Assembly: GCA_009377695.1 (NCBI GenBank)
Contig: WHTP01000018.1
Location: 1-64,000, forward strand
DNA: 64,000 nt
Source of the DNA: Hyphomicrobiales bacterium
GTDB lineage: Bacteria; Pseudomonadota; Alphaproteobacteria; Rhizobiales; Xanthobacteraceae
Direction: 5' to 3'
In this document: one piece after another, positions 29,740 to 64,000 of the stretch
How positions within the stretch are numbered: position 1 is the first letter of the stretch
Layout of the letters: every line of letters starts with the position of its first letter
The notes under the pieces: model-generated
Seen by the model: the letters and a program-made list of their open reading frames with translations, nothing else
Database searches by the model: none
Told to the model about the DNA's origin: nothing
Position numbers and translations under genes: made by a program

Positions 29740-29813
29740 CTAGTGTCCCGATTCCGAAGTTCGTATCGCTTCGCGGCGGCCTCTGTTGCGGACTTCTGAA
29801 CCGCCGCACTTGT
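29740..29813. repeat. Chimeric half element: A left arm joined to B right arm (locus 2)
   Basis: The left side, CTAGTGTCCCGATTCCGAAG plus the A-type loop (tcgcttcgcggc), is standard A. The right side, GCGGACTTCTGAACCGCC, is the right arm of B. The linker and the two inner arms are missing. The result no longer folds into a long hairpin. It looks like an internal deletion between the two related loops of an A-linker-B unit. Confidence 0.88.
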
Positions 29814-39158: not shown

Positions 39159-39322
39159 CTAGGTGGCGGTTCAGAAGTCCGCATCATTCTCGCGGCGAGT
39201 CAGACATGCGGACTTCTGAACTAAGCCACACTAGAATCAACGAGTTGCTAGTGCCCTTCGATTCCGAAGTTCGTATAAGAGGCTGCTGCGAGTTCCTACG
39301 AACTTCGGAATCGGGACACTAG
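39159..39322. repeat. Two-hairpin CTAG element, B-linker-A (locus 4)
   Basis: Complete: B (with CTAGGTGGCGG at its outer edge), linker aatcaacgagttg, A ending GGGACACTAG. It ends only 5 bp before the ATG of the metallo-beta-lactamase-fold gene, so the usual ribosome-site region of that gene falls inside the hairpin's outer arm. Confidence 0.95.
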
Positions 39323-42762: not shown

Positions 42763-43419
42763 TCAATTCGCCGCGAAGCAGTAGAGCAGGCCATTGCCGC
42801 CGGTGCCGACCAGCGCCTGCTGGCTGCAGCCTTTGGATGGATGTGACGAATTCCAGGACCGTGACGGCGCGTCGTCGCGCAAGCCTTGACGGTCGTGGTG
42901 CCCGACAATGGCCGAGCCGCTGTCGGCGCTGGTCCAGTTGTTGCAAGTCGTGTCTTTCTCGCCCGTGATCGCGCGTCCCTCCGGCGAGGAGCCGGTGAGG
43001 ATGTCGTGCATGTTCGGTTTGTCGCCGCGGCCGTTGACCGCCTGGCCGGTTTCGGTAAGCGCGGTCTGCTTGTTGAGATTGTTCTTGTCGCCGTGGAGAT
43101 CGTCGAGGGTGCGGGCCACGACTTCGCCCTTGGCATTCTGCCAGGGACCGCGGCCGATGCGGTCGCGCGCGTTCACGGATTTCGCGCCGGTGGTGCTGAG
43201 GTAAGCGCGCCAGGTCTTGGCGCCGGAACCGGCGGCTTGGGCCAGTTTCTGGCACAGCGCATCGGCGCCTGCGAGTCCGCCGAGATTGCCGCCGTTGCCG
43301 GGCCCGGCGCTGGTGATGAAGAAGGTCATCGAACTTTGCTGCGCCTGCAGGCCTGCGGTACTCGCCACTGCTGCAAGCCCGACCGCGGCGGCAAGTGCGA
43401 TTTCCGTCGTTCGCTTCAT
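42763..43419 (-). CDS. Secreted collagen-XV/endostatin-like lectin-fold protein
   Basis: 218 residues from ATG 43419 with a signal peptide (AAVGLAAVASTAGLQAQQ). The domain starts FFITSAGPGNGGNLGGLAGA and runs through AKTWRAYLSTTG, DRIGRGPWQNAKG and a C-terminal GCSQQALVGTGGNGLLYCF. The pattern fits the endostatin/C-type-lectin-like fold seen in exported bacterial proteins. A ligand cannot be told. It lies between a palindrome and the amine oxidase gene. Confidence 0.75.
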   Translation of the reverse strand: MKRTTEIALAAAVGLAAVASTAGLQAQQSSMTFFITSAGPGNGGNLGGLAGADALCQKLAQAAGSGAKTWRAYLSTTGAKSVNARDRIGRGPWQNAKGEVVARTLDDLHGDKNNLNKQTALTETGQAVNGRGDKPNMHDILTGSSPEGRAITGEKDTTCNNWTSADSGSAIVGHHDRQGLRDDAPSRSWNSSHPSKGCSQQALVGTGGNGLLYCFAAN

Positions 43420-44689: not shown

Positions 44690-44849
44690 CTAGTGTCCCG
44701 ATTCCGAAGTTCGTTCCATTTCGCAGCGACCTCTTATACGAACTTCGGAATCGAAGGACACTAGCAACTCTTTGAATCTAGTGTGGCTTTGGTTCAGAAG
44801 TCCGCATGTCGGACTCGCCGCGAGAATGACTTCTGAACCGCCACACTAG
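44690..44849. repeat. Two-hairpin CTAG element, A-linker-B (locus 6)
   Basis: Intact A, linker caactctttgaat and intact B. It separates lysR from the amine oxidase gene on the same strand. The right-hand CTAG supplies the TAG stop codon of lysR (44846-44848 on the minus strand). Confidence 0.97.
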
Positions 44850-49680: not shown

Positions 49681-50340
49681 TCAGCGCGTGCTCATCGCCA
49701 GTCGCGGGCTGATCGGTGCGTTGCCTTGGTTCGGAGCAAGCACGACGACGATCGCGCCCATCTTCACGCGATTGTAGAGGTCGATCACGTCCTCATTGGT
49801 CATGCGGATGCAGCCCGAGGAGATCGCCTGCCCGATATATTCGGGCTGGTTGGTTCCATGAATGCGAAACAACGTGTCCCGGTTGCCCTGGTATAGATAG
49901 ATGCCGCGCGCGCCGAGCGGATTATGCGGCCCCCCTTCGACGCGATCAGGCACGTCCGGCATGCGGCGCTTGATATCGGCCGTCGGAACCCAGGACGGCC
50001 ACTCTTCCTTGCGACCGACCTTTGCGACGCCCCAGAACGACAATGCGTCTTCGCCGACCGTCACGCCGTAGCGGATCGCCTTGCGATTGGGGAGTACGTA
50101 ATAGAGATGGCGCGCATCGGAATCGACGACGATCGAGCCCGGCGCTTCCGAGCGGTGATAGTCGACGATGTGGCGCTGGTAGGCTTGTGGAATCGATGCT
50201 TGGGCATACGGCGCGTTGGCGAGCAGCCGCCGATCACGCGGTGTGAAATTGGCGTCGGTGGCGGGCTCAAGCGTGGCCTGCATACAGCCGCCGAGCATCA
50301 AACCAGCTATTAAAAAAAGCGCGCTCTTACGCACTGCCAT
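49681..50340 (-). CDS. L,D-transpeptidase (YkuD family), lipoprotein
   Basis: 219 residues from ATG 50340, whose N-terminus carries a lipobox LMLGGC (Cys acylated, so likely outer- or inner-membrane anchored). The YkuD motif is HGTNQPEYIGQAISSGCIRM with His and Cys of the active site; HNPLGARGIYLY precedes. It makes 3-3 peptidoglycan cross-links or attaches proteins to the wall. The frame extends upstream, but the lipobox fixes the start. Confidence 0.92.
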   Translation of the reverse strand: MAVRKSALFLIAGLMLGGCMQATLEPATDANFTPRDRRLLANAPYAQASIPQAYQRHIVDYHRSEAPGSIVVDSDARHLYYVLPNRKAIRYGVTVGEDALSFWGVAKVGRKEEWPSWVPTADIKRRMPDVPDRVEGGPHNPLGARGIYLYQGNRDTLFRIHGTNQPEYIGQAISSGCIRMTNEDVIDLYNRVKMGAIVVVLAPNQGNAPISPRLAMSTR

Positions 50341-50743
50341 GACCAACCCTATCCCGCCATATGGCGCGGCCCGAACTACGATTTCGACTCGTCCCCTTGG
50401 CAAAATTACGCAAAAGCATCCGACACTTCCAGAACTTTGGGCGGCACTGCAGCATTGTCCCGAAGGCCTGTTGCAAGAATGCCTCACTCGCACGGGCCAA
50501 CCTGCGAAAAAGCGCCCCTTTTGACGGATGAGCAGATTGTTCAAAGGATCTGGGGACCGAATCCCAGTGTGGACGGGGATTCTTAACTGCGGGTTTACTA
50601 AGGGTATCTGTTGTGCGGCGGCGAGCGCAGATTGTCATGATAGCTCACGATTTGCTGCCCATTTCCGCCCCACTGACCCATCATGGTGAGCGAGTTCCGC
50701 TAACGACCCAAAAACACGAAGAAAAACCCCACGGAGAGTGACA
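50341..50743. other. 403 bp intergenic region with no evident gene
   Basis: Between the L,D-transpeptidase and a small gene. I see no hairpin family, tRNA or coherent reading frame. Promoters of both divergent genes must lie here. Confidence 0.4.
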
Positions 50744-50932
50744 ATGCCCTTGAAGAGTGCGGCCCCCTCAAGCGACCAGCGAAAGGGCGAAGACCTCGGC
50801 GGCCGCTACGGCAAGATCGGCATTCCGGCCGTCGCCGCAGCGCGGCGCTATCAGAGCGACGCCAAGAACCAAGCCTATGCGCCAGCCGTGCATCGCGGCG
50901 ACGAATCGCGCTCGGAGATGGCGGCGGCCTGA
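50744..50932 (+). CDS. Small conserved-looking protein of unknown function
   Basis: 62 residues with GGAGAG ahead of the ATG. The segment GEDLGGRYGKIGIPAVAAARRY is familiar from short rhizobial proteins of unknown role. No signal peptide or membrane segment is seen. It is followed at 211 bp by corA, on the same strand. Confidence 0.55.
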   Translation: MPLKSAAPSSDQRKGEDLGGRYGKIGIPAVAAARRYQSDAKNQAYAPAVHRGDESRSEMAAA

Positions 50933-51142
50933 CCTGGCTGCCTGACGCAGCATCGAACCGACGCAGCATCGAATCGTACGGACCCGTCCGGTGTAGCAGC
51001 CGGGCGGGTTCGCGTTTCGGTGTGAGCGTGCCGACATCAAAACGTCTTGCAAGTACCGCAGAACATAGGCCATCACTGACCCGATCCGGTCGGTCGTGGG
51101 GGCCGGCTCTCATTCGCCGAGACGCAGCGCGGGGGAGGGTTG

Positions 51143-52123
51143 ATGCTCTCAGTTTATCTGCCCCAAGACGTCTGTCTTGAACGCCGCGCCATTGCGCCCG
51201 ACGCCACCGCGCTGCCTGAAAACGGGATCTGGTTCGACCTGGTCACTCCGACGCAGGCCGAAGACAAGTTGCTCGAGCGCCATCTCGGGATCGCGGTGCC
51301 GACCCGCGAAGAGATGCTCGAGATCGAGGTCACCAGCCGCCTCTATGTCGAGAACGGCGCGCGCTACATGACCGCGACCATGATGTGCCAGTCCGACACG
51401 GAGACGCCGAAGACAACGGTCGTCACCTTCATCCTGTCGGGTCGCCGGCTGGTTACTGTCCGCTACGACGATCCGAAGCCGTTCCTGATCGTCGGCAACA
51501 AGCTCTGCCGTACCTCGCCTTCCGGTGCGACCGGCGAAACCGTCCTGATGGAACTCCTTGACGCGGTGATCGACCGGGCCGCCGACATCCTGGAGCGGAT
51601 CGGCCTCGATGTGGACCAGGTTTCCCACGACATCTTCGAGCCGGAGGAAGCGGGCACATCGGGCGCGCGAAACTACCGTAGCATTCTCAAAGCCATCGGC
51701 CGCAAAGGCGACCTGACATCGAAGGTGCGGGAGAGCTTGGTATCGATCGGCCGCGTGTTGCTCTATCTCGCCAATGAAGCCGATATCATGAAATGGGCGA
51801 AGGACTCGCGCGGGGAACTGCGCGGCATGCAGCGCGACGTCCAGTCGCTGTCCGACCACGCCGCCTACCTGTCCAACAAGATCACGTTTCTGCTCGACGC
51901 CATGCTGGGCGTGGTCAATCTCGAGCAGAACAACATCATCAAGCTGTTCTCGGTCGTCGCCGTGATCTTCATGCCGCCGACGCTGATCGCCTCGATCTAC
52001 GGCATGAACTTCGAGGTCATGCCGGAACTGAAGTGGCAGTACGGGTACCTGATGGCGATCATCATGATGATCCTCGCCGCCATTTTGCCGCTGGCCTATT
52101 TCCGCTGGAAGAAGTGGCTTTGA
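51143..52123 (+). CDS. corA: CorA-family magnesium/cobalt transporter
   Basis: 326 residues from ATG 51143 with GGGGGAGGG ahead. The family signature YGMN is in IASIYGMNFEVMPELKWQYG between two C-terminal membrane helices; the long N-terminal part is the cytoplasmic funnel. A pentameric divalent-cation channel of the inner membrane. Confidence 0.94.
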   Translation: MLSVYLPQDVCLERRAIAPDATALPENGIWFDLVTPTQAEDKLLERHLGIAVPTREEMLEIEVTSRLYVENGARYMTATMMCQSDTETPKTTVVTFILSGRRLVTVRYDDPKPFLIVGNKLCRTSPSGATGETVLMELLDAVIDRAADILERIGLDVDQVSHDIFEPEEAGTSGARNYRSILKAIGRKGDLTSKVRESLVSIGRVLLYLANEADIMKWAKDSRGELRGMQRDVQSLSDHAAYLSNKITFLLDAMLGVVNLEQNNIIKLFSVVAVIFMPPTLIASIYGMNFEVMPELKWQYGYLMAIIMMILAAILPLAYFRWKKWL

Positions 52124-52265
52124 TAAGGCACGAAACTGGATGACGCGAACGTGTTGCCGGTCCTCCGCCGATGAGGACAAGAAGGATGCACTCGCGCTCT
52201 GATGATACGCAGCAGAAAAAGGGCCTCGCGGAGAAAGAAGGGCTTTGCGGCGAAGTCGCGGGGCC

Positions 52266-52599
52266 CTAGTGGAGTGGATTTGACATTCGCTACGCCGTTG
52301 ACCGCAGCTCCCAAAGCGAATGTCAAATCCAAACTCCACTAGCAGCTTATATTTGCTAGTCTAGTGTCCCGGTTCCGACGCTTGTATCACCTTGCCGCAC
52401 ATGCGTTTACAAGCGTCGGAACCAAAGGGACACTAGAACTCGTTGGTGCTAGTGCGGTTTTGGATTTGACGTTCGTACTACGAACTCGCAGCAACACTGG
52501 TACGAACGTCAAATCCACCGCACTAGTCGTCCTTATGATTCTAACATTCGCAAAGTCGCCCGCTGAGAAGGGATGCGAATGTTAGAATCGGACCACTAG
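52266..52599. repeat. Nested CTAG elements: unit C-linker-E interrupted by unit F-linker-D (locus 7)
   Basis: C (52266-52342), linker cagcttatatttg, then CTAGT; after the inner unit, E (52527-52599) with its outer arm beginning TCGTCCTTATGATTC. The same C-E unit, in the reverse orientation and not interrupted, is present at 63047-63215, which proves what the intact unit looks like. The inner F-D unit sits exactly at the CTAG joining linker and E. Confidence 0.94.
52361..52526. repeat. CTAG element unit F-linker-D, inserted in the unit above
   Basis: F (52361-52436, stem core GGTTCCGACGCTTGTA), linker aactcgttggtg, D (52449-52526, stem core GGATTTGACGTTCGTA). The full unit is 166 bp and starts and ends with CTAG. 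The T-rich bulge is again on the linker-facing arms (F: CCAAAGGG; D: CGGTTTTGG). Confidence 0.94.
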
Positions 52600-52740
52600 C
52601 AGCTCTGGGGTAGGGAGGGCCCTCACTTCCAGGCTGCCGCTGGCGAGAAATCCGTTCAACGGTCCGGGTGCGGTTCGCAGGATTGCTTCCGATCCTTTTG
52701 CCTGCGCTAGCGGCACCGGCCGCTCTACTGATAATGGGGG

Positions 52741-52789
52741 ATGATTATTTCGCCAAACGTAGTAGATTGGCGCTCGAGCGAATAATCAT
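52741..52789. promoter_or_regulatory. Bulged palindrome ahead of a small coiled-coil gene
   Basis: ATGATTATT-t-CGC and GCG-AATAATCAT form a stem with a single unpaired T; inside, CGCCAA / TTGGCG make a second stem. It ends 15 bp before the start codon, so it could be an operator, a leader hairpin or a small mobile end. Confidence 0.45.
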
Positions 52790-52804
52790 GCTGAGCCGTG
52801 AGAA

Positions 52805-52990
52805 ATGGCTGAAACAAATATTAGCGTGACGGATGCTCTCAAGGGGCAGCAGGAACAGTTGAAGCGGCTGATTGCGCAAAAGACATGGATGAGCGAGGCA
52901 TCGAAGGGTACCTTGTCCGAAATCAAGGCGCAAATAGGCGAGCTTAAACGCTTGCTTGATCAGCTTGAGTCGAAAATCGACGAAAGCTAA
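52805..52990 (+). CDS. Small coiled-coil protein of unknown function
   Basis: 61 residues, nearly all helical with heptad pattern (QQEQLKRLIAQ, LSEIKAQIGELKRLLDQL). No domain is recognised. Its base composition is lower in GC than its neighbours. The upstream palindrome suggests control of expression. Confidence 0.5.
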   Translation: MAETNISVTDALKGQQEQLKRLIAQKTWMSEASKGTLSEIKAQIGELKRLLDQLESKIDES

Positions 52991-53373
52991 AGAAACTCAT
53001 CGCCGCTCCGCGGTCGCTTTGACGTAGCTACGTGCTGATGCACTTAGTCTTCTTCGCGGTCGCGCCACAGGCCCAATTCTCTGATCTTGCAGTCAACCTC
53101 TGCCTCATTCCGGCAAAGAAACCGAGCCGCTTCCCCCAGGCTCGTTCGTCGGCGCATCAGTTTCTGCAAATCAAGCAGGTCTATGGAGGTCCAGGGCCTG
53201 TCTCCGAAGCAAAAACCGGTCATGACTGGTTCCTGCTGTCCTTGCTCAACGTCTGCGCAACCGATTGAAGGTGGTGTGCAACAACGCCGACATCGTCAGT
53301 ATCGCCCTGAGGCATAGCCAACGCGCGTCGTGCCGCTAAAATTCGCCGAGGGCAATGTCCCAACTTGTACCGC
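52991..53373. other. 383 bp region without a recognisable gene
   Basis: A 78-codon frame at 53032-53268 lacks a ribosome site and any recognisable motif. I see no repeat family or RNA gene. Confidence 0.35.
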
Positions 53374-54132
53374 CTAAACGTGCTGGCCGCCGTTGATGTG
53401 GATCTCGGCGCCGTTCACGTAAGACGACGTCTCGGTGCACAACACGTAGATGATCTTCGCTACCTCGTCAGGTGTTCCGAGCCGGTGCAACGGGATCTGG
53501 TGTGCGACGATGTCCTCGGTACCAGGCGACAGGATTGCGGTATCGATCTCGCCCGGCGCGATCGCGTTCACGCGGATGCCGAGCGGGCCGAAGTCGGATG
53601 CCATCTCCCTGGTGAGCGAGGCCAGCGCGGCCTTTGAGGTGGCGTAGGCCGCCCCGGCAAAGGGATGCACGCGCGAGCCGGCAATCGACGTGACGTTCAC
53701 CACCGCACCTTGCGCCGCCTTCAATTCGTCGAGCAGTCCGCGCGCCAGCATGATCGGCGCAAAGAAGTTGACCTGGAACACGTGCCGCCAAACGTCGAGC
53801 GTGGTTCCGATCGAGGTCAGCCGCTTGCCGGCGTCGGCCTTGGGCGAGATTGCGGCATTGTTGACAAGCGCGTGCAGGTGCCCGTTGTCGAGCCGCTCTT
53901 TGATCTCGTCGATCGCCGCCAACGTGCTCGCTGGGTCGGCGAGATCGAGCTGGATATGATCCTCCGGCCCCATCTCCCAGGGGCAGTTTTCCGGAAAGGC
54001 ATGGCGCGAGCAGGTGATCACCCGCCAGCCGGCGGCGGAGAAGCGCTTCACCGTGGCATGTCCGATGCCGCGGCTGGCTCCGGTCAGGAGCAGTGCGCGG
54101 CGCGGCTGGTTGTCATGCGGAGTGGCCATCAA
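53374..54132 (-). CDS. Short-chain dehydrogenase/reductase
   Basis: 252 residues. Cofactor motif TGASRGIGHATVKRF, NNAAISP, and active-site Tyr-x-x-x-Lys in YATSKAALASL. The C-terminal INGGQHV ending is typical of FabG-like SDRs. It reduces or oxidises an unknown carbonyl. It follows pdxH on the same strand with a 14 bp gap, so the two are probably one operon. Confidence 0.9.
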   Translation of the reverse strand: MMATPHDNQPRRALLLTGASRGIGHATVKRFSAAGWRVITCSRHAFPENCPWEMGPEDHIQLDLADPASTLAAIDEIKERLDNGHLHALVNNAAISPKADAGKRLTSIGTTLDVWRHVFQVNFFAPIMLARGLLDELKAAQGAVVNVTSIAGSRVHPFAGAAYATSKAALASLTREMASDFGPLGIRVNAIAPGEIDTAILSPGTEDIVAHQIPLHRLGTPDEVAKIIYVLCTETSSYVNGAEIHINGGQHV

Positions 54133-54146
54133 CCTACACTATCACC

Positions 54147-54788
54147 TTATGGATAGAGCCGCGTCTTGCTCCACGGCTCATTCGCGGCCGCGCGCCGAAA
54201 TTCGATCCGATCGTGCAACCGGTACGGCCGATCGTGCCAGAACTCTATGACCAAAGGCACCACACGGTAACCCGACCAGTTCGGCGGGCGCGGCACGGTG
54301 CCGACGGCATATTTCGCCATCGTAAGGGCGAGCGCCTTCTCGAAGGCCATGCGGCTTTCAAGCGGCGCCGACTGCTTGCTCGCCCAGGCGCCGATCTGCG
54401 CCAGCCGGGCCCGGGTAGCGAAATAAGCGTCGGCCTCGCCGGGATCGACCGGCTCGACCGTCCCGCGCAGGCGCACCTGACGGTTGAGCGACTTCCAGTG
54501 AAATACCAGCGCGGCTTTGGGGTGCCGCTCAAGCTCCCGGCCCTTGGCGCTGTCGATGTTGGTGTAGAAGACGAAACCCCGCTCGTCGAAGCCCTTGAGC
54601 AGCACCATCCGTGCGTTCGGCAGGCCATCGTCGTCTACCGTTGCGAGCGTCATCGCGCTGGCGTCGGAGGGTTCCGAGCGCTTCGCTTCGTCGAACCACG
54701 TCGCGAACAGCCGCAACGGCTCGTCGGCTTCGGTGAAATCACCGGCCGTTAACTCATTCGGGTGTTGTATCGACGGCGTGTTGGCCAT
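54147..54788 (-). CDS. pdxH: Pyridoxamine 5'-phosphate oxidase
   Basis: 213 residues. FMN-binding motifs [20 protein letters not shown] and [19 protein letters not shown], plus the C-terminal RLHDRIEF. It forms pyridoxal phosphate from pyridoxamine or pyridoxine phosphate in the cytoplasm. Divergent from a lipoprotein gene. Confidence 0.95.
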
Positions 54789-54873
54789 TCCCGGAGTACC
54801 GTTGGTGCTTTGTTCCTGGTTGCGGCAGTCCGGTTATAAAGGAAGGCCTTTCGTCCGGCCATGCTGCCGCTCG

Positions 54874-55317
54874 GTGCGGTGGATACCACTCTGGAGCGCG
54901 GTGCTGTCGCTTGCGTTGGTCTCGGGCGGCTGCAGCTTCTCGTATCAAATGGACTCGATGTTCTCGCGCCAGCGCGACGCCGGCGCCATCGGCTCAACCC
55001 GGTCGGCCACGCCCCGCCAGCAATCATTCGCCGCCATGCCGCAGGAAGGCGACCTTGCGCCCGCTCGAGCGGCCATGAGCGAGGCACTGGGCAAGGGCGG
55101 ACGCAACGCCAGCGTTCCGTGGGAAGACCCCATCACCGGTGCGCGCGGCACCGTCACACCGCTGTCGAATGGCCATACGCAGGACGGCGCCACCTGCCGC
55201 GATTTCCTGGCAAGCTACGTTCGCAACGGGTCGGAGTCATGGCTGCAGGGCGAGGCCTGCCGCGGGGCCCAGGGCCGCTGGGAGCTGCGCCACGTGCGAC
55301 CCTGGCGAAAGACCTGA
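54874..55317 (+). CDS. RT0821/Lpp0805-type surface lipoprotein
   Basis: 147 residues from GTG 54874: MRWIPLWSAVLSLALVSGGC with a lipobox (VSGGC). The mature part ends CRDFLASYVRNGSESWLQ and WELRHVR, typical of short 17-kDa-like surface antigens of alphaproteobacteria. The open frame extends upstream over pdxH, which is not the true start. Function unknown. Confidence 0.75.
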   Translation: MRWIPLWSAVLSLALVSGGCSFSYQMDSMFSRQRDAGAIGSTRSATPRQQSFAAMPQEGDLAPARAAMSEALGKGGRNASVPWEDPITGARGTVTPLSNGHTQDGATCRDFLASYVRNGSESWLQGEACRGAQGRWELRHVRPWRKT

Positions 55318-55387
55318 CCGCGCCCTTCCGCCCGACCAATGCGTTGCGCACCGTGGCAGCGATCCCCACATTTGTGCCATGAATGGG

Positions 55388-55503
55388 CTGGTGTGGCGGT
55401 TCGGAAGCGCGCCATACCTGCCGGTCCGCTGGTGTGCTCGGAATCCGAAGTTCGCAAAAGGATTGGCAGTACGGTGGTGCGAGTTTCGGATTGGGGACAC
55501 CAG
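55388..55503. repeat. Diverged CTGG variant of the hairpin element (locus 8)
   Basis: A partial B-like arm (CTGGTGTGGCGGTTCGGAAG) is followed by an A-like palindrome at 55429-55503, whose edges are CTGGTG and CACCAG instead of CTAGTG/CACTAG. Arms AATCCGAAGTTCGCA and TGCGAGTTTCGGATT still pair. The matched change at both edges shows that pairing is conserved. The linker is missing. Confidence 0.8.
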
Positions 55504-55552
55504 GGCCAATACGGCCAAACAAGCGGTATGAAGAGGCCCGGAGGGCTTAGCG

Positions 55553-56581
55553 ATGCGCGACCCCTATGACGTCTTGGGGGTGTCCCGGAGCGCGAGCGCC
55601 GCGGACATCAAAAGCGCGTATCGCAAGCTCGCCAAGAAGCTTCACCCGGACGCCAACAAGCAGGACCCGAAGGCGGCCTCCCGGTTTGCCGAACTAAATG
55701 CTGCCTACGAGATCGTCGGCGACGATGACAAGCGCAAGGCCTTCGACCGCGGCGAGATCGATGCCGAGGGCAAGCCGCGGTTCCAGGGTTTCGAGGGCTT
55801 CGGCGCAGGCGCCGGCGCGCGTGGCGGCGCCAGCGGTCCCTTCGGCGCCCAGGAAGGCGCGTTCGAGACCTTCACCTGGGGACCGGACGGCATGCGACGC
55901 TCGAGCGGGTGCGGCGGTGGCGCGCGCGGCGGTGGTGGGCGTGGCGGCTTCGAGGATGTCCTGCGCGACATGTTCGGCGGTCTCGGCGGCGCTTCGCGCG
56001 CGCGGCGCGGCGCTGGCGGCGGCTTTCAGTTCGAGGAGGACGAGTACGCGCCGCCGCCGGGCCGCGACGTCACCGCGACCGCGACGATCACGCTTGAGGA
56101 GGCGGCCAAGGGCACAGTCCGGCGCGTCCAGCTCCCGACCGGCAAGGAGCTTGAGGTGAAAGTCCCGGCCGGGCTCACGGATGGTCAGCAGATCAGGCTC
56201 AAAGGGCAAGGCCTCGCCATGCCGGGCGGCAAGGCTGGCGACGTGCTGATCACGATCTCGATCGCGCCGCATCACCTGTTCCAGCGCGAAGGAAATGATC
56301 TGCTCATTGAGCTTCCGGTGACGCTCTACGAAGCAGTACTGGGTGCGAAGGTGCGTGTGCCGACGATCGATGGTGCGGTCGAGCTGTCGATCCCGGCCAA
56401 CACCAGCTCGGGCCGTACGTTCCGGCTCAAGGGCAAAGGATTTCCCGCCAAGGGCGGCGCCGGCGATCTGATGGCGACGGTGCGCATCGTGCTGCCGGAT
56501 AAGAGCGACCAGGCGCTCGACGAATTGATGACGTCGTGGCGTGAGCTCAACCCCTACGACCCGCGCAAGGGCATGGGTTAA
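55553..56581 (+). CDS. DnaJ-class chaperone (CbpA-like, no zinc finger)
   Basis: 342 residues. J domain at residues 1-65 with the HPD motif (KKLHPDANK); a long Gly/Ala-rich linker (about 80-160) ; and the C-terminal substrate-binding domain (RDVTATATITLEEAAKGTVRRVQLP, then two beta domains). No cysteine zinc repeats, so it is type II. It stimulates DnaK ATPase. Confidence 0.92.
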   Translation: MRDPYDVLGVSRSASAADIKSAYRKLAKKLHPDANKQDPKAASRFAELNAAYEIVGDDDKRKAFDRGEIDAEGKPRFQGFEGFGAGAGARGGASGPFGAQEGAFETFTWGPDGMRRSSGCGGGARGGGGRGGFEDVLRDMFGGLGGASRARRGAGGGFQFEEDEYAPPPGRDVTATATITLEEAAKGTVRRVQLPTGKELEVKVPAGLTDGQQIRLKGQGLAMPGGKAGDVLITISIAPHHLFQREGNDLLIELPVTLYEAVLGAKVRVPTIDGAVELSIPANTSSGRTFRLKGKGFPAKGGAGDLMATVRIVLPDKSDQALDELMTSWRELNPYDPRKGMG

Positions 56582-56585
56582 GCGC

Positions 56586-56752
56586 CTAGTGTCCCGATTC
56601 CGAAGTTCGTACCGTTTCGCAGCGGCCACTGTATACGAACTTCGGAATCGAAGGACACTAGCAACTTATTGATTCTAGTGTGGCTTAGGTTCAGAAGTCC
56701 GCAATTCGGACTCGCCGCTACAATGTAGCGGACTTCTGAACCGCCACACTAG
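56586..56752. repeat. Two-hairpin CTAG element, A-linker-B (locus 9)
   Basis: Complete A, linker caacttattgatt and B between the DnaJ-like gene and the convergent anti-sigma gene. Starts 5 bp after the DnaJ stop. The right-hand CTAG contains the TAG stop of the anti-sigma gene (56749-56751, minus strand). Confidence 0.96.
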
Positions 56753-57558
56753 GACCCCTTTCGCCGCGAGATCAGCGGAAACTGTGCGCCGCGCGCCGGC
56801 GGATTCTCCATCTGCTCGTAGGCGGTCTGCGCAATCTTCGCCAGCCGGCCGCGGTCGTCGGGACCGCTCACGACATAGCCGATTTCGCTCTCGACCCAGT
56901 GCATCGCCGCAATCTCGCCGCCGGATTGATAGCGCAGCGCCATACGCATCTTCTTCGAGCGCGAGCAGTAGATGGTGAAGCGCTCACCGCTCGGGCTCTC
57001 ATACATGAACAGGGCCGCCGGCCCGATCGGACCTGGCAGGAGGCGACCACCGAGGAGCTGCAGCGAATATTCGTTCAGGTCCGGAATCCGCAGGGTGGTG
57101 CCGACCCGCTTCGAGAGCCACGGGATAAGGTGCTTCTCGGCCGCCTTCACCTCGATCGGATGGCGGACCTCGGCGATATAGAGCTTGTGGGCGCTGAGCG
57201 CATCCGCCGTTATGATCTCGCCCGACGAGGGCGCCGGCGTCGAGGCCGCACGCCCGATCCAGCCGGCAGCGCCGCCGATCACGGCGGCGAGCAGCGCCGC
57301 CGCAGCGATTGCACGCCACGGCGGGCGCGAGCGCGCAAGCTTCGCAAGATCGAAACGCGCTGGGACCGGCTCATCGGCGATCGATCCGTAGCGCTGGTGC
57401 AGGGCGTCCGATAGTGCGCGCCATTCAGCGACGCGAGCGGCATCTTCGGGATGGATGGCAAGCCATGCTTCGACGGCGCCCGTGCGGTCGGCCGGAAGCA
57501 TGCCGTCCACATAGGCGTGAAGTTCATCGGTGGTCACGGGTGAATCACGGTCGGTCAT
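56749..57558 (-). CDS. Transmembrane anti-sigma factor
   Basis: 269 residues. The N-terminal 80 residues (TDELHAYVDGMLPADRTGAVEAWL) form the sigma-binding part, a helix (WRAIAAAALLAAVIGGAAG) crosses the membrane, and about 160 residues lie in the periplasm. It follows the ECF sigma gene in the same operon with a 71 bp gap. The stop codon TAG is provided by the CTAG element. Confidence 0.87.
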   Translation of the reverse strand: MTDRDSPVTTDELHAYVDGMLPADRTGAVEAWLAIHPEDAARVAEWRALSDALHQRYGSIADEPVPARFDLAKLARSRPPWRAIAAAALLAAVIGGAAGWIGRAASTPAPSSGEIITADALSAHKLYIAEVRHPIEVKAAEKHLIPWLSKRVGTTLRIPDLNEYSLQLLGGRLLPGPIGPAALFMYESPSGERFTIYCSRSKKMRMALRYQSGGEIAAMHWVESEIGYVVSGPDDRGRLAKIAQTAYEQMENPPARGAQFPLISRRKGS

Positions 57559-57629
57559 TGTGACGTCCCTCGACTCTTTCTCGTTTCAGTTTCGTTGAAG
57601 GGCCCGGCTGACGCATCGACGTCACTCAC

Positions 57630-58121
57630 CTACTTCACGCGTCGCAGCGACGGGCGTGCGCCATCGAGATAAGTCTTGATCTGAATGCGCGCGCGGGCGA
57701 GCCGGGACATCACTGTGCCGATCGGCACGCCCTGAATTTCGGCAACCTCCCGATAAGTCAATCCTTCGAGCACGACCAGCAGCAATGCAACGCGCTGGTC
57801 GTCTACCAGCGAAGCTAGCGCTCGTTCGATATCGCGGCCGCCGGCCTCCGGTCCTGCGGTGTCCGGGGCGTCGTTGTCCTCGATCGAGGTGTGCGTCGGC
57901 CGGCGCGCTAGCGAGCGCAGGCGGTTGCGGTTGAGGTTGGTGAGGATCGTATAGAGCCAACTGCGTACGTCTCCACCATGAAACAAATGCTCCGAACGTA
58001 AGGCTCGCACGAGGGTGTCTTGCACCAGGTCGTCGGCGAGCTCGGCGTCATGGGTCAGCGCGCGCGCATAGCGCCGCAATGCCGGTATCGCCGCCTCGAC
58101 GCTCGGCCGGAATCCGCTCAC
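57630..58121 (-). CDS. ECF RNA-polymerase sigma factor
   Basis: 163 residues. Sigma region 2 (LRRYARALTHDAELADDLVQDTLVRAL, then GDVRSWLYTILTNLNRNRLR) and region 4 (LEGLTYREVAEIQGVPIGTVMSRLARARI). It would direct polymerase to stress promoters when released by the downstream anti-sigma factor. No clear autoregulated promoter was seen upstream. Confidence 0.92.
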   Translation of the reverse strand: MSGFRPSVEAAIPALRRYARALTHDAELADDLVQDTLVRALRSEHLFHGGDVRSWLYTILTNLNRNRLRSLARRPTHTSIEDNDAPDTAGPEAGGRDIERALASLVDDQRVALLLVVLEGLTYREVAEIQGVPIGTVMSRLARARIQIKTYLDGARPSLRRVK

Positions 58122-58356
58122 GTCGCCCTCCCGCCGGTTGGCCGGAGGCCTCGATGCCGTCCGGTCCGTCGCCGCAACCGAAGAATGGTAGCCTATCTGC
58201 CCGGCGTCTGCGCCTCGCTGCCCCGCCTATGCTCGTCGGATGCGTTCGGCGGAGCATGACTGAACAAACACTGGTACGTCGCGGCTATTCCCTCGGGTGT
58301 AATCGAGGCCGATCGTGCGGCTGCTTGAAGGCGCTATGACCCTATGCCATAGGAGG

Positions 58357-58454
58357 GCACTAGCAACTCTTTGAATCTAGTGTGGCTTTGGTTCAGAAGT
58401 CCGCATGTCGAACTCGCCGTGAGGATGATGCGGATTTCTGAACCGCCACACTAG
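58357..58454. repeat. Two-hairpin CTAG element, truncated A and full B (locus 10)
   Basis: Only GGCACTAG remains of A, then linker caactctttgaat and a complete B whose stem has one change (GGATTTCTGAACC). It lies 33 bp before fabI. Confidence 0.93.
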
Positions 58455-58487
58455 TGGCCGCTCCCCGGGGGCGGAGCAAGGGAAAGT

Positions 58488-59303
58488 ATGGACGCGTCCG
58501 GTCTCATGCGCGGCAAGCGCGGCCTGGTGATGGGAGTCGCCAACAATCGCTCCATTGCCTGGGGTATCGCCAAGTCCTGCCGGGCGCAGGGCGCCGAGCT
58601 GGCGTTCACCTATCAGGGCGATTCGCTCAAGAAGCGCGTTGACCCGCTGGCCGAGGAGGTCGGCGGTTTGGTCGTCGGCCATTGCGACGTCACCGACCCA
58701 GCGACCATTGACGCGGTGTTCGCCGAGATCGAGAAGCGCTGGGGCAGCCTCGACTTTGTCGTGCATGCCATCGCCTTCTCCGACAAGGATCAGCTCACCG
58801 GCCGCTATGTCGACTGCACGGCGGAGAACTTCTCGCGGACGCTCTCGATCAGTTGCTACTCGTTCACGGCGATCGCGCAACGCGCCGAGAAGCTGATGCC
58901 GGACGGCGGCTCGCTGCTCACGCTCACTTATTACGGCGCTGAAAAGTGGATGCCGCACTATAACGTCATGGGCGTCGCCAAGGCAGCGCTCGAGGCATCC
59001 GTGCGCTATCTCGCCGCCGATCTCGGCGAGAAGAACATTCGCGTCAATGCCCTGTCGGCTGGTCCGATCCGCACGCTGGCCGCCGCCGGCATCGGCGATT
59101 TCCGCTATATCCTCAAGTGGAACGAATTGAATTCGCCGTTGCGACGAACCGTGACCATCGAAGAGGTCGGCGATGCGGCGCTTTATTTCCTTTCCGATCT
59201 GGCCCGCGGAGTGACCGGCGAGGTTCATCATGTCGACGCCGGCTATCACGTCGTTGGCATGAAGCACCCGGACGCGCCGGATATCAGCGTCGCGAAAGAC
59301 TAG
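58488..59303 (+). CDS. fabI: Enoyl-[acyl-carrier-protein] reductase (NADH)
   Basis: 271 residues. It performs the last step of each fatty-acid elongation cycle. Cofactor and active-site segments: GVANNRSIAWGIAKSC, CDVTDPATI, SISCYSFTAI, and Tyr-x6-Lys in YYGAEKWMPHYNVMGVAKAAL. The TAG stop at 59301-59303 is the beginning of the next CTAG element. A GGGAAAG ribosome site precedes the ATG. Confidence 0.96.
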   Translation: MDASGLMRGKRGLVMGVANNRSIAWGIAKSCRAQGAELAFTYQGDSLKKRVDPLAEEVGGLVVGHCDVTDPATIDAVFAEIEKRWGSLDFVVHAIAFSDKDQLTGRYVDCTAENFSRTLSISCYSFTAIAQRAEKLMPDGGSLLTLTYYGAEKWMPHYNVMGVAKAALEASVRYLAADLGEKNIRVNALSAGPIRTLAAAGIGDFRYILKWNELNSPLRRTVTIEEVGDAALYFLSDLARGVTGEVHHVDAGYHVVGMKHPDAPDISVAKD

Positions 59304-59465
59304 TGTGGCGATTCAGAAGTCCGCATCATTCTCGCGGCGAGTTCGACATGCGGACTTCTGAACCTAAGCCACACTAGATTCAAAGAGCTGCTAGTGTCCT
59401 TCGATTCCGAAGTTCGTATTGGAGGACGCCGCGAAATCGTACGAACTTCGGAATCGGGACACTAG
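59300..59465. repeat. Two-hairpin CTAG element, B-linker-A (locus 11)
   Basis: Complete 166 bp unit between fabI and the phosphoglycerate-mutase-like gene. Its first CTAG gives the fabI stop; its last G begins the GTG start of the next gene. Removal of one copy leaves GACTAGTGGTG, i.e. a TAGTG stop/start overlap. Confidence 0.97.
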
Positions 59466-60064
59466 TGGTGCGCCCTACGCTCTATTACGTTCGTCATGGG
59501 TTGACCGACTGGAATATTGAAGGCCGCCTGCAAGGCGGTCACGACGTCCCGCTCAACGATCGCGGTCGTGCACAGGCGGCGCAATGCGGCGAGATCATCC
59601 GCGATCTGTTCGCGTGCGCGAGCTGCATCGCCTCAGACTTCCATTACGTCTCCAGCCCGCTGATCCGGGCGACCGAGACCATGGACATTCTCCGCAAGGG
59701 GCTCGGCCTTGCGCCGGACGGCTACGCGCGCGATCCGCGGCTGAAGGAGATCGCCTTTGGCGAATGGGAGGGGCTCACCTATCTCGACGTGCTCAAGCGC
59801 GACCGGTCCGTGGTCGAGAAACGGGAAGGCGACAAGTGGCTCTTCCGTCCGCCCGGCGGCGAGACCTATGAAGAGGTCGCGCGCCGCGTCGGCGAATGGT
59901 ACGCGACGCTCGACCGCGACACGGTGGTGACCGCCCATGGCGGCACCGCGCGGGCGCTGGTCGGATATCTCGGCATTGCAACGCCCGAGGAGGCGGCCCA
60001 CCAGCCGATCGAGCAGGGCGTGGTCTATGTCTTTGCCGACAAGCGGCTCGCGCGATATGCCTAG
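59465..60064 (+). CDS. Histidine phosphatase (phosphoglycerate mutase-like)
   Basis: 199 residues from GTG 59465 (or GTG 59468). Motif LYYVRHGLTDWNIEGRLQG carries the catalytic His; later Arg (SPLIRATETM), Glu (EIAFGEWEGL) and His (VVTAHGGTARAL) complete the site. It is a phosphatase or mutase of unknown substrate. Ends with an unoccupied CTAG. Confidence 0.9.
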   Translation: MVRPTLYYVRHGLTDWNIEGRLQGGHDVPLNDRGRAQAAQCGEIIRDLFACASCIASDFHYVSSPLIRATETMDILRKGLGLAPDGYARDPRLKEIAFGEWEGLTYLDVLKRDRSVVEKREGDKWLFRPPGGETYEEVARRVGEWYATLDRDTVVTAHGGTARALVGYLGIATPEEAAHQPIEQGVVYVFADKRLARYA

Positions 60065-60181
60065 GCAATGTGAGCGGGAAGTCGCGAGGTGGGCGCGTGG
60101 CGTGAACGGACGCCAAGTCATCAGCCCCTCTAGCGCACGAAACTGTGACGCTTGCGCACCAGGCATGATCGGAGCCGAGCA

Positions 60182-61099
60182 ATGGATGACAACACCCCCA
60201 TCGGAGCAACAAAGACGGTAGCTACCCAAGACGGCCGTAGTCTCGCATATCTCGAAGTTGGAGATCCGCACGGGCCACTCGTTATCCATAATCATGGTGG
60301 ACCCAGTAGCCGGTTTGAGGCACGCCTCTTCGCAAATTCAGCATCGAAAAATCGGTTACGACTAATATGCGTGGACCGACCCGGTATGGGACAGTCCAGT
60401 CCCCAAGAAATCCGCACCTACTCCGGCTGGGCTGACGACTTGATAACGATCGCCGACGCGTTGGGGTACCGCGAATTCGGAGTGACAGGCTGGTCGGAGG
60501 GTGGCCCCTGGGCCCTTGCGGCAGCTGCTTACGTTGATCCCGTTCGACTGCGCCATGTCAGCAGCATCGCGGGTGGAAGCTACGGAACATTTGGTGATAA
60601 CTGGGCAAAGAATTACCTTTCTAAAATCGACGCGCTGGGGGGATTTCTCGCACTGCATTTTGAACCTGGCTTCCGCCTCATGTACGCGGCCGTTGGCATA
60701 ACCGCCGAACACTTCCGCGAGACCTACATCAAACAGCTGCGGAAAGCCGTCAACGACTACGATCGGCAGATTTTGCTTCGACCGGGTTTCGAAACCGCCT
60801 TCTGCGAAACAAGCGCCGAATGCTTCGCTCAAGGTAGCGACGGGCTCGTTCGCGACAGTGAACTCCTCTATCGGAGTTGGGCTTTCGACGTGAGAACAAT
60901 CGAACGGCGAGTCCACATGTGGCAAGGAACGGATGATCGGCTTGTGCCGCCTTCCATCAACAAGCAGGTAGCTGACCAAATGCCTGGAGCGGTGTGGCAT
61001 TCAGTTGAGGGAGCCGGTCATTTTGTGGCTGTCGGTTCAGCGGACGAATTGTTCGGAATCGCGGCCGAGGAACTGGGGTCGAGACGAGAGCCAGCGTGA
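60182..61099 (+). CDS. Alpha/beta hydrolase
   Basis: 305 residues from ATG 60182. The nucleophile elbow is GWSEGG, the acid in [12 protein letters not shown] and the His in [11 protein letters not shown]-terminal [11 protein letters not shown] is typical of the oxyanion loop. Base use is lower in GC than neighbours, suggesting transfer. Substrate unknown. Confidence 0.85.
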
Positions 61100-61250
61100 C
61101 AGGCTGTTTCGATCTCGAAGACCCGGATGCAAACGAGATGCGATGGCACGAAGCGCTGACGAGCGATACGCAAGTGACGGGCGGGCGAGAACAGCCGAGC
61201 GGAAGACCTCGTACTCGTCGATGCGCACTCGTTAGTGCCGCGAAGCACAC

Positions 61251-61646
61251 TCACTTGCGGTATTGCGCGTCGCTGACCTTTTCCATCCAGTCGACATTCT
61301 TGCCGTCGATCGCTTCCTGAATGGCGATATGCGTCATCGCCGTCGTCGGCGTCGCGCCGTGCCAATGCTTTTCGCCGGGTGGAAACCAAACCACATCACC
61401 GGGCCGAACTTCCTCAATAGGGCCGCCCTCGCGCTGCACCCACCCGCAGCCGAAGGTGATGACCAAGGTCTGGCCGAGGGGATGCGTATGCCAAGCCGTC
61501 CGCGCTCCCGGCTCGAACGTGACGCTGGCGCCGGTGACCCGTGCCGGATCAGGCGCCTGGAACAGCGGGTCCAGGCGGACCACACCGGTGAAATAGTCTC
61601 CCGGTGGCTGGCGGGACGGTTGTGAGCCGCTGCGCGTGATATGCAT
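61251..61646 (-). CDS. Cupin-domain protein
   Basis: 131 residues from ATG 61646. Cupin motif 1 is [20 protein letters not shown] and motif 2 [17 protein letters not shown]. Metal-binding His residues are in place. Related proteins are small dioxygenases or isomerases of carboxylates. Convergent with the hydrolase above. Confidence 0.85.
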
Positions 61647-61928
61647 TTTTACTGTCCTTCGTTTGTGCGGTATCAAGATCAGACTGGGCATCCAGCTTAT
61701 CCTGGTCTGCGGCTTACCTAACCGTTGCCAGCGCGGCGAATTCATGCATCTGCGTCTTTGATCTCGCGTCCTTTCCATTTGCCGCAGCCGGATGATAGCG
61801 CTCCCGCCCGCACCCTTGGCGGGCAACACGCTGCCGGTCGCGGCGGGATCATCTGCACCGGCAGACTTCCAGCCATTTGACCCCGGGCGGCGGCGGGGCT
61901 ACCACCACCGCGCAGCCGGTGGAAATCC

Positions 61929-63050
61929 ATGTCCTTCAACACGTTCGGCCATATGTTCCGGGTCACGACCTTTGGCGAGAGCCATGGGCCGGCGATCGGC
62001 TGCGTGGTCGACGGCTGCCCGCCCGGCATTCCACTGACCGAGGCCGACATCCAGCCGTATCTCGACAAGCGCCGGCCCGGGCAGTCGCGTTTCACCACGC
62101 AGCGCCAGGAGCCCGACCAGGTGCGGATCCTGTCCGGCGTGTTCAAGGACGAGCGGATGGGTGCGCAGGTCACCACCGGCACGCCGATCGGACTGCTGAT
62201 CGAAAATGTCGACCAGCGCTCGAAGGACTACTCCGACATCCGTGACAAGTACCGCCCCGGCCACGCCGACTACGCCTATGACGTCAAATACGGGCTGCGC
62301 GACTATCGCGGCGGCGGGCGCCAGTCGGCGCGCGAGACCGCGATGCGGGTCGCCGCCGGCGCGATCGCGCGCAAGATCGTCCCCGGCATGACGGTGCGCG
62401 CCGCGCTCATCCAGATGGGCCCGGAGACAATCGATCGCGCGCGCTGGGACTGGGACGAGGTCGAGCGCAATCCGTTCTTCTGCCCGGATGCGCAGAAGGC
62501 GCAATTCTTCGAGACCTATCTCGACGGCGTCCGCAAGAAGGGCTCGTCGGTCGGTGCAGTGATCGAGGTCGTGGCCGACGGCGTGCCGCCCGGCCTCGGC
62601 GCGCCGGTCTACGGCAAGCTCGACGGCGATCTCGCCGCCGCCATGATGGGCATCAATGCGGTAAAAGGCGTCGAGATCGGCGCCGGCATGGGCGCCGCCG
62701 CGCTCACCGGCGAAGAGAACGGCGATGAGATGCGCACCGGCAATGACGGCATGCCGACGTTCCTGTCGAACAATGCCGGCGGCATCCTCGGTGGCATCTC
62801 GACCGGGCAGCCGATCGTCGTTCGTTTCGCGGTCAAGCCGACGTCCTCAATTCTCACGGCGCGGCGCACCGTCGATCGCTACGGCACCGAAACCGAGATC
62901 AGCACCAAGGGCCGTCACGACCCTTGCGTCGGCATCCGCGCAGTGCCGATCGGCGAGGCGATGATGGCCTGCGTGGTGGCGGATCATTACCTGCGGCAGC
63001 GCGCCCAGGTGGGTGAGAGCCCGGCCTGGCCGTTCGCGAAGCCGCGCTAG
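61929..63050 (+). CDS. aroC: Chorismate synthase
   Basis: 373 residues, standard length. Motifs [38 protein letters not shown] and FAVKPTSSI. It forms chorismate from EPSP using reduced FMN. The TAG stop at 63048-63050 is the first CTAG of the next element; ribB follows it. Confidence 0.97.
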
Positions 63051-63215
63051 TGGTCCGATTCTAACATTCGCATCCCTTCTCAGCGGGCGACTTTGCGAAT
63101 GTTAGAATCAAAGGACCACTAGCAAATATAAGCTGCTAGTGGAGTTTTGGATTTGACATTCGCTTTGCGAGTCTGCGGTCAAACGGGGTAGCGAATGTCA
63201 AATCCACTCCACTAG
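63047..63215. repeat. CTAG element, unit E-linker-C (locus 12, first unit)
   Basis: E (63047-63122), linker caaatataagctg, C (63136-63215). It is the reverse complement of the outer unit at 52266-52599, here uninterrupted. Its first CTAG is the stop codon of aroC, and its last CTAG is shared with the next unit. Confidence 0.96.
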
Positions 63216-63380
63216 TGTGGCTTTGGTTCAGAAGTCCGCATCATTCTTGCGGCGAGTCCGACATGCGGACTTCTGAACCAAAGCCACACTAGAATCAAAG
63301 AGTGCTAGTGTCGTTTCGATTCCGAAGTTCGTATAAGAGGCTGCTGCGAAATGGTACGAACTTCGGAATCGGGACACTAG
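63212..63380. repeat. CTAG element, unit B-linker-A (locus 12, second unit)
   Basis: B (63212-63292) with the TTT insertion on both arms, linker aatcaaagagtg, A (63305-63380, with one base change CGTTTCG). It begins at the CTAG that ends the previous unit, so two units lie head to tail with one shared CTAG. Confidence 0.96.
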
Positions 63381-63398
63381 CTAAGGAACACAAGTATC

Positions 63399-64000
63399 GT
63401 GGACGAAATCCACCAGCGCGTCGAAGCCGCTATTGCCGCCTTCGCCAATGGCGAGATCGTCGTCGTCGCAGACGACGATGATCGCGAGAACGAGGGCGAC
63501 CTGTTCGTCGCGGCATCGCTGTGCACGCCCGACAAGATGGCGTTCGTCATCCGCAACACGTCGGGAATCGTGTGTGCGCCGCTGGCGCCGGACGAAGCGA
63601 AACGACTCAATCTCAATCCGATGGTGGCGCTCAACGACGCGCCGCTCGGCACCGCCTTCACTGTTTCGGTGGACGTTCGTCATGGCTTGACCACCGGCAT
63701 CTCGGCCGAGGAGCGCAACAACACCGTGCGCGCGCTCGCCAACGGCAACAGCGGCGCCAGCGATTTCGTGCGGCCGGGCCATGTCTTCCCGCTGGTCGCG
63801 AAGGAAGGTGGCGTGCTCATGCGCTCGGGCCACACCGAGGCCTGCGTCGACCTCTGTCGTCTCGCCGGCCTGCCGCCGGTCGGCGTGCTGGCGGAACTGA
63901 TGAACGACGACGGCACCGTGATGCGAGGCCCGACGGTTGCTGCGTTCGCTGCCAAGCACAAGCTCAAGGTGCTCTCGATTGCCGACGTGATCGCCTACCG
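63399..64000 (+). CDS. ribB: 3,4-dihydroxy-2-butanone 4-phosphate synthase (RibB or RibBA), 3' part outside the window
   Basis: At least 200 residues from GTG 63399 with AAGGAA ahead. The start reads VDEIHQRVEAAIAAFANG, then VVVADDDDRENEGDLFVAA with the acidic active-site residues, and HTEACVDLCRLAGLPPVGVL. It makes the four-carbon precursor of riboflavin. The frame is open at the edge after IADVIAYR, where bifunctional RibBA would continue into a GTP cyclohydrolase domain. Confidence 0.93.
   Translation, partial: MDEIHQRVEAAIAAFANGEIVVVADDDDRENEGDLFVAASLCTPDKMAFVIRNTSGIVCAPLAPDEAKRLNLNPMVALNDAPLGTAFTVSVDVRHGLTTGISAEERNNTVRALANGNSGASDFVRPGHVFPLVAKEGGVLMRSGHTEACVDLCRLAGLPPVGVLAELMNDDGTVMRGPTVAAFAAKHKLKVLSIADVIAY

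Follow-up and report, generated by a model that had tools for sequence, protein, structure and literature searches.

The hairpin array and its surroundings

The DNA considered here belongs to a Hyphomicrobiales bacterium (assembly GCA_009377695.1, genome G000 below), and the window is the whole analysed stretch of 64,000 nucleotides, positions 1–64,000 of contig WHTP01000018.1. A segment of 1,247 bp (52124–53370) lies there between corA and a convergent SDR gene, and an array of four hairpins (52266–52599) makes up only a part of it. In the congener G005 corA and the SDR gene adjoin, and these 1,247 bp are absent.

The predicted fold of the array has z = -17.2 against 100 shuffles. Its components are given in Table 1. 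The linker CAGCTTATATTTG is followed by CTAGT and then by CTAGTGTCCC, the start of hairpin F, and at the other joint hairpin D ends in GCACTAG and hairpin E continues with TCGTCC. The inner arm of this E has TCG in place of TGG, which is unique among the aligned copies, and E also carries a one-base insertion found in several other E copies. Joins of the form hairpin–linker–hairpin were searched for with the pattern CACTAGN{11,14}CTAGTG, which occurs 10 times in the window and not once in any of 100 dinucleotide shuffles.

According to the initial annotation, an F-D unit interrupts a C-E unit exactly at the CTAG joining the linker and hairpin E, and the uninterrupted C-E unit is found in inverted form elsewhere in the window. 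Both the coordinates and the insertion point were correct, and the intact unit is indeed present near the end of the window. In the base-by-base comparison of the two C-E copies, complementarity is 100% along 65 nt of the E hairpins and along a further 30 nt comprising the end of C, the linker and CTAGT.

Table 1. Hairpins, linkers and two-hairpin units in the window
Feature	Positions	Strand	Remarks
Hairpin C, left half of interrupted C-E unit	52266–52342	+	CTAG at both feet
C-E linker CAGCTTATATTTG	52343–52355	+	13 nt
Extra CTAGT at the junction	52356–52360	+	yields CTAGTCTAG
Hairpin F of inserted F-D unit	52361–52436	+	AAA bulge on linker-facing arm
F-D linker AACTCGTTGGTG	52437–52448	+	12 nt
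Hairpin D of inserted F-D unit	52449–52526	+	TTT bulge on linker-facing arm
Hairpin E, right half of interrupted C-E unit	52523–52599	+	one CTAG common to D and E
A-B unit	39159–39322	-	
A-B unit	44690–44849	+	congener G005 has a single CTAT at the aligned place
A-B unit following a dnaJ-like gene	56586–56752	+	near-clean empty site in congener G006
Partial A-B unit	58360–58454	+	linker, hairpin B and, of hairpin A, only the last CACTAG
A-B unit at fabI	59300–59465	-	fabI stop codon within the first CTAG
Uninterrupted C-E unit, inverted, at aroC stop	63047–63215	-	E 63047–63122, linker 63123–63135, C 63136–63215; last CTAG common to adjoining A-B unit
A-B unit abutting the C-E unit	63212–63380	-	

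Some of these units touch the ends of genes. The stop of the aroC frame is now the TAG of a CTAG of the neighbouring C-E unit, and in G005 and G006 the frame apparently ends a few bases later. At the fabI stop, G006 and G005 carry apparent decayed hairpin remnants at the corresponding position, and the insertion may therefore have used an old site. A collapsed hairpin at 29740–29808 of the window consists of the outer halves of A and B, apparently after a deletion within an A-B unit, and a similar one is present at 294–365 of locus L016.

Plan and types of the units

The units are built as CTAG-hairpin-CTAG-linker-CTAG-hairpin-CTAG and are about 166 bp long. Among the called pairs in the stretches read, the hairpins measure 72–81 nt in G000 and 75–79 nt in the genome G125, and the linkers 12–13 nt; the lone gap of 18 nt is the C-to-F joint of the window array, i.e., 13 + 5. 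Each hairpin has a short bulge on the arm facing the linker; in C, D, E and F it is mostly AAA or TTT. Both bulges are directed towards the linker in 32 of 38 pairs in G000, in every one of the 19 G125 pairs and, for G049, a genome of another genus, in 22 of 23 simple pairs; at least some of the exceptions in G000 are neighbours inside nested arrays.

Three main types, A-B, C-E and F-D, are distinguished in G000 by their stems and linkers. The types P-Q and R-T of G049 have stems unrelated to those of G000, and their plan is identical. Every unit contains two inverted hairpins, as do REPINs.

Nested units

The C-[F-D]-E block occurs in G000 at no fewer than four loci (the window, C164, C117 and C8), always with the F-D unit in the same CTAG and the same orientation. 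The flanks of the window block are unlike those of the other three, and what the flanks of C164, C117 and C8 have in common reads as repeat sequence of A-B units. At C8 the block sits within an A-B unit with a decayed B hairpin, giving three levels. As the block is found in the same orientation at four or more loci, it may have reached the window locus already assembled, and the claim of the initial annotation that this locus is direct evidence of an insertion was not supported in that form. A clean empty site for the window array was sought in congeners and was found neither in G005, which is devoid of all 1,247 bp, nor in G006, which differs there too. The simpler states do exist: C-E units in simple form are common, F-D units in simple form occur in at least five places in G000, and the array is thus no ancient block without simpler forms.

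A-B units inside C-E units were found at five loci of G000 in three combinations of site and orientation. Between C and the linker they stand as B-A at C4 and C218 and as A-B at C110, and between the linker and E as B-A at C32 and C108, the last of these nests having lost part of hairpin C. At locus L014 of G000 an A-B unit lies inside a diverged A-B-like unit.

Arrays of G049 were examined in its first 1 Mb. Clean nests of R-T in P-Q at 76524, 89667, 257276 and 373059 involve both internal CTAGs and both orientations, and near 923630 a P-Q unit is found in an R-T unit. Several other arrays of this genome have outer hairpins that do not match (e.g., at 43347 and 259727). Together with the collapsed A/B hairpin at 29740 of the window, they indicate that recombination or deletion between hairpins does happen, which lends something to the explanation that no transposition took place and that the nested block is a product of slippage, or of homologous recombination, among hairpin repeats. 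Nevertheless, this explanation, disfavoured already, is highly improbable: in clean nests the inner unit has stems and a linker different from those of the outer one, the majority of joints fall precisely on CTAG, nesting is seen in either orientation, and congener sites lack the units.

In each of the four C-[F-D]-E blocks listed, F-D is in a single one of the four possible states of site and orientation, whereas the five A-B cases show three states. Moreover, a one-base insertion in E, also present in three simple E copies, is shared by three of the listed blocks. These two features suggest that the nested block can spread as one piece, and, judged from such sequence comparisons, we find this fairly likely; a site preference could also give the same site and orientation in the four copies.

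Insertion at CTAG

The target of each nested insertion is a known repeat, and therefore the insertion reaction can be read exactly. The net gain in nested cases is the unit minus one CTAG (4 bp), in agreement with the arithmetic of lengths obtained from coordinates: 331 = 168 + 167 - 4 at L130 and 330 = 168 + 166 - 4 at L003. The window block has additional length in the extra CTAGT. One CTAG becomes two on insertion, and the second may belong to the unit. Among 57 units of G000, an outer CTAG is present on both sides in 42.

Empty sites were looked for by comparing 53 arrays or CTAGTCTAG sites, with 300-bp flanks, with stretches of the congeners; for most of the remainder there was no congener DNA for comparison. 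Eight arrays have a near-clean empty site: both flanks are neighbours in a congener, and the gap between them measures -7 to 8 bp (window 56586, window 63047, L132 3398, L134 6180, L134 12350, L135 15221, L144 5707 and L429 3098). Sites with collinear flanks and a poor joint were excluded from this number, namely window 58377 and 59300, L132 2099, L135 13993 and L144 3877, as well as L144 5707 in its comparison with G005. The empty sites inspected contain at most one CTAG-like tetramer (CTAT, CTGG, GTAA, TTAG, CCGG, CAG or less) and in no case an exact CTAG; at a flank identity of 69–91% they fit an ancestral CTAG, but also a looser target.

The units are repeated, nearly identical and absent from the alignable corresponding sites of congeners. 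The nests, the eight empty sites and the length arithmetic uphold the broader part of the initial annotation, that the unit moves whole: as far as aligned sequences can tell, the two-hairpin unit acts as one insertion and enters CTAG, including CTAGs within other units, in either orientation.

CTAG on both sides of the insertions, with at most one similar tetramer in the empty sites, would also be expected of MITEs moved by a cut-and-paste DDE transposase that duplicates the 4-bp CTAG, where the element proper is TG...CA and the hairpins are secondary. The IS481, IS5 and IS701 groups use CTAG-like targets, NCTAGN in the IS481 type. MITEs of these groups resemble the units in having CTAG on both sides and TG...CA ends, and differ in that no matching IS was found in the stretches read. 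A 6-bp NCTAGN duplication of the IS481 type was not seen, and the bases beside the outer CTAGs do not repeat. Not one of the 57 units of G000 has the same non-CTAG tetramer on both sides, which speaks against such a transposase. Moreover, the internal CTAGs and both hairpins, needless for a DDE enzyme, keep their plan across genera; the conservation of the internal CTAGs is partly selected by the search, as they belonged to the search pattern. On balance we consider the DDE explanation rather unlikely.

The junction mark

The initial annotation had also described a small duplication of CTAGT at the junction. It is present in the window array, but is missing from the other three block copies listed. 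This extra CTAGT may be an excision footprint or an insertion by-product.

The resulting sequence CTAGTCTAG was counted 50 times in G000, 14 times in the unit-free G005 and at most 12 times in any other of 149 genomes of the family. By an arm-score rule, 24 of the 50 sites in G000 lie flush with a hairpin. The remaining 26, to which L130:10113 belongs, have no called hairpin in that position, and some of them are next to decayed ones. In G005 a single site of the 14 reaches the arm-score threshold and 13 fall below it.

Under the DDE explanation, CTAGTCTAG could be an excision footprint composed of one terminal base and CTAG, and the 24 flush sites, the middle base T or A in all eight sites of 387 kb and the occurrence of CTAGTCTAG at the nested junction near 923630 of G049 would agree with this. 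However, two sites of this type with a middle G or C were found in a larger set, and the numbers of CTAGTCTAG do not track those of units across genomes: 418 units are accompanied by 7 sites, 349 units by 3, and the 14 sites of G005 by none. As a general excision mark CTAGTCTAG is therefore unsupported by the comparison across genomes.

Distribution in the family

The genome G000 contains 219 joins, and the reversed pattern used as a control gave 7. In the survey of 149 genomes of the family Xanthobacteraceae, seven congeners among them, the join pattern was found in 64 genomes, with a range from 0 to 418 copies; the control gave 1–26 per genome, so that some of the low counts may be due to chance. 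High numbers in other genomes were 418 (G049) and 349 (G125), besides 97, 85, 74, 55 and 48. Two of the seven congeners, G005 and G007, have no units.

The median identity to the nearest copy is 0.98 in G000 (n = 38), 0.98 in G049 (n = 68) and 0.92 in G125 (n = 19). By this measure the copies of G000 and G049 are young, pointing to a recent spread, and those of G125 older. A plasmid collection gave no match for the one A-B unit queried, and a phage collection none for the four-hairpin array. Rfam returned for 50000–64000 only two weak microRNA matches, far below the gathering scores and taken as chance.

Search for the moving enzyme

Twin inverted hairpins, a bulge and a tetranucleotide at the foot are features that the units share with REPINs, and they might be REPINs proper, moved by a RAYT (a Y1 HUH transposase) encoded elsewhere in the genome. 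The RAYT model found matches in 48 of the 149 genomes; G000 has three. Of the 7 genomes that contain 50 units or more, 6 have a RAYT match and 5 a Y1_Tnp match; among the 142 others the numbers are 42 and 30 (Fisher p 0.005 for RAYT and 0.008 for Y1_Tnp). The exception to RAYT, G125, has no match to either model, and its copies are old. At a threshold of at least 10 units, the association is weak for RAYT (11 of 22 against 37 of 127, p 0.08); for Y1_Tnp, it is 10 of 22 against 25 of 127 (p 0.014).

The quality and position of these genes argue against them. Among the six genomes with RAYT matches, that of G080 has an internal stop and that of G049 lies under the model cut-off. RAYT L016 of G000 is only distantly similar to L156 of G049, the identity being 28% over 117 aa. 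None of the three RAYT loci of G000 (L016, L238 and L239) has CTAG hairpins on both sides; L238 and L239 are without a called CTAG hairpin, L239 having a join-spaced CTAG pair 2.3 kb from the gene. At 10 further RAYT loci of other genomes no called CTAG hairpin occurs within 1.5 kb. Besides, G005 has two RAYT matches and zero units, and the feet are CTAG rather than GTAG. Taken together, it is unlikely that the units are REPINs proper.

The RAYT gene at 1360–1890 of L016 (G000:C25) stands beside a hemF-looking gene, with GTAGGGTGGG repeats on both sides. It was rejected as a cognate mover, being flanked by GTAG repeats, with a collapsed A/B hairpin about 1 kb away. Of 29 loci with Y1 matches (L147–L175), only L147 (G039) has a CTAG twin-hairpin unit (1187–1349), which adjoins an IS200-like Y1 transposase gene on one side and may be there by chance.

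A search for an autonomous copy, i.e., a gene between facing hairpins, covered 435 kb of G125 and 1 Mb of G049 and met with only host genes and IS-like transposase ORFs. In the G049 stretch, transposase-like ORFs, judged by eye, lie between facing hairpins at three places, with joints that read as IS insertions into units; the G125 stretch gave none. At G049:C1:122447-123729, a gene named by eye as an IS3-like transposase is situated between a hairpin and the linker, and hence the units are also targets of ordinary IS elements. No full-length IS with matching ends was found in the stretches read, which form part of each genome only. The lack of an autonomous relative in these stretches (some lone arms in G000 loci were left out) is a further point against a DDE transposase.

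Relation to known palindromic repeats

Palindromic repeat dimers fill many bacterial genomes. We know of no enzyme for some of their classes, such as CGTC repeats. REPINs, or BIMEs (pairs of GTAG REPs served by RAYT), are like the CTAG units in having two inverted imperfect hairpins and a spacer, in occurring as many near-identical copies and in being non-autonomous. The differences are considerable: the hairpins of REPINs are 20–50 nt long compared with 72–81 nt, GTAG stands at one foot instead of a palindromic CTAG at both feet of each hairpin, the CTAG units have a short linker of 12–13 nt, and no RAYT gene was seen between CTAG hairpins.

According to PMC8266576, REPs of E. coli carry a bulge needed by RAYT. 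In PMC3733652, where both GTAG and CGTC repeats are described, CGTC-tagged REPs are presented as palindromic dimers frequent in alphaproteobacteria, including Bradyrhizobium and Rhodopseudomonas, apparently without a dedicated transposase. These are similar to the units as palindromic dimers of the same class of bacteria, but have the CGTC tag at one end, while the hairpins of our units end in CTAG; the text of that paper, figures aside, does not mention CTAG. Br-REP1 and Br-REP2 of Bradyrhizobium, described in PMC5082802 as repeated palindromes of intergenic regions and 3'-UTRs, are likewise repeated palindromes in related bacteria with a different consensus, and Br-REP1 was not found in the window at up to 3 mismatches. 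No description of CTAG-bounded twin hairpins was found in the open-access literature searched. The CTAG units are REPIN-like palindromic dimers without the defining features of REPINs, namely feet of GTAG and a RAYT gene enclosed by such repeats.

Conclusions

Summarizing these data, we consider the window array quite probably to be a small non-autonomous mobile unit inserted in another one of the same kind. In such a nested insertion one CTAG is converted into CTAG-unit-CTAG; an enzyme acting in trans would recognize the folded hairpins, and cutting and joining would take place at CTAG. The likeliest route would be a single-strand, REPIN-like one, although its chance of being right is about even. 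The nested block would then, with fair likelihood, spread as a single piece.

A single-strand enzyme that reads hairpins remains our first choice, as families of units that differ completely in stem sequence retain the hairpin plan and the CTAG feet; a DDE transposase with a CTAG target is its main rival. Tentatively, and with somewhat less than even confidence, we propose that CTAG-bounded twin hairpins form, next to the GTAG and CGTC repeats, a third large class of mobile palindromic dimers. A hitherto unknown enzyme would move them, with CTAG as both the cut site and the target, and they would build nested composites that spread as single elements.

The observation that one CTAG goes in and CTAG-unit-CTAG comes out defines the task of the moving enzyme. 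The patchy abundance of the units, from 0 to 418 copies within one family, provides matched genomes for tracing this enzyme.
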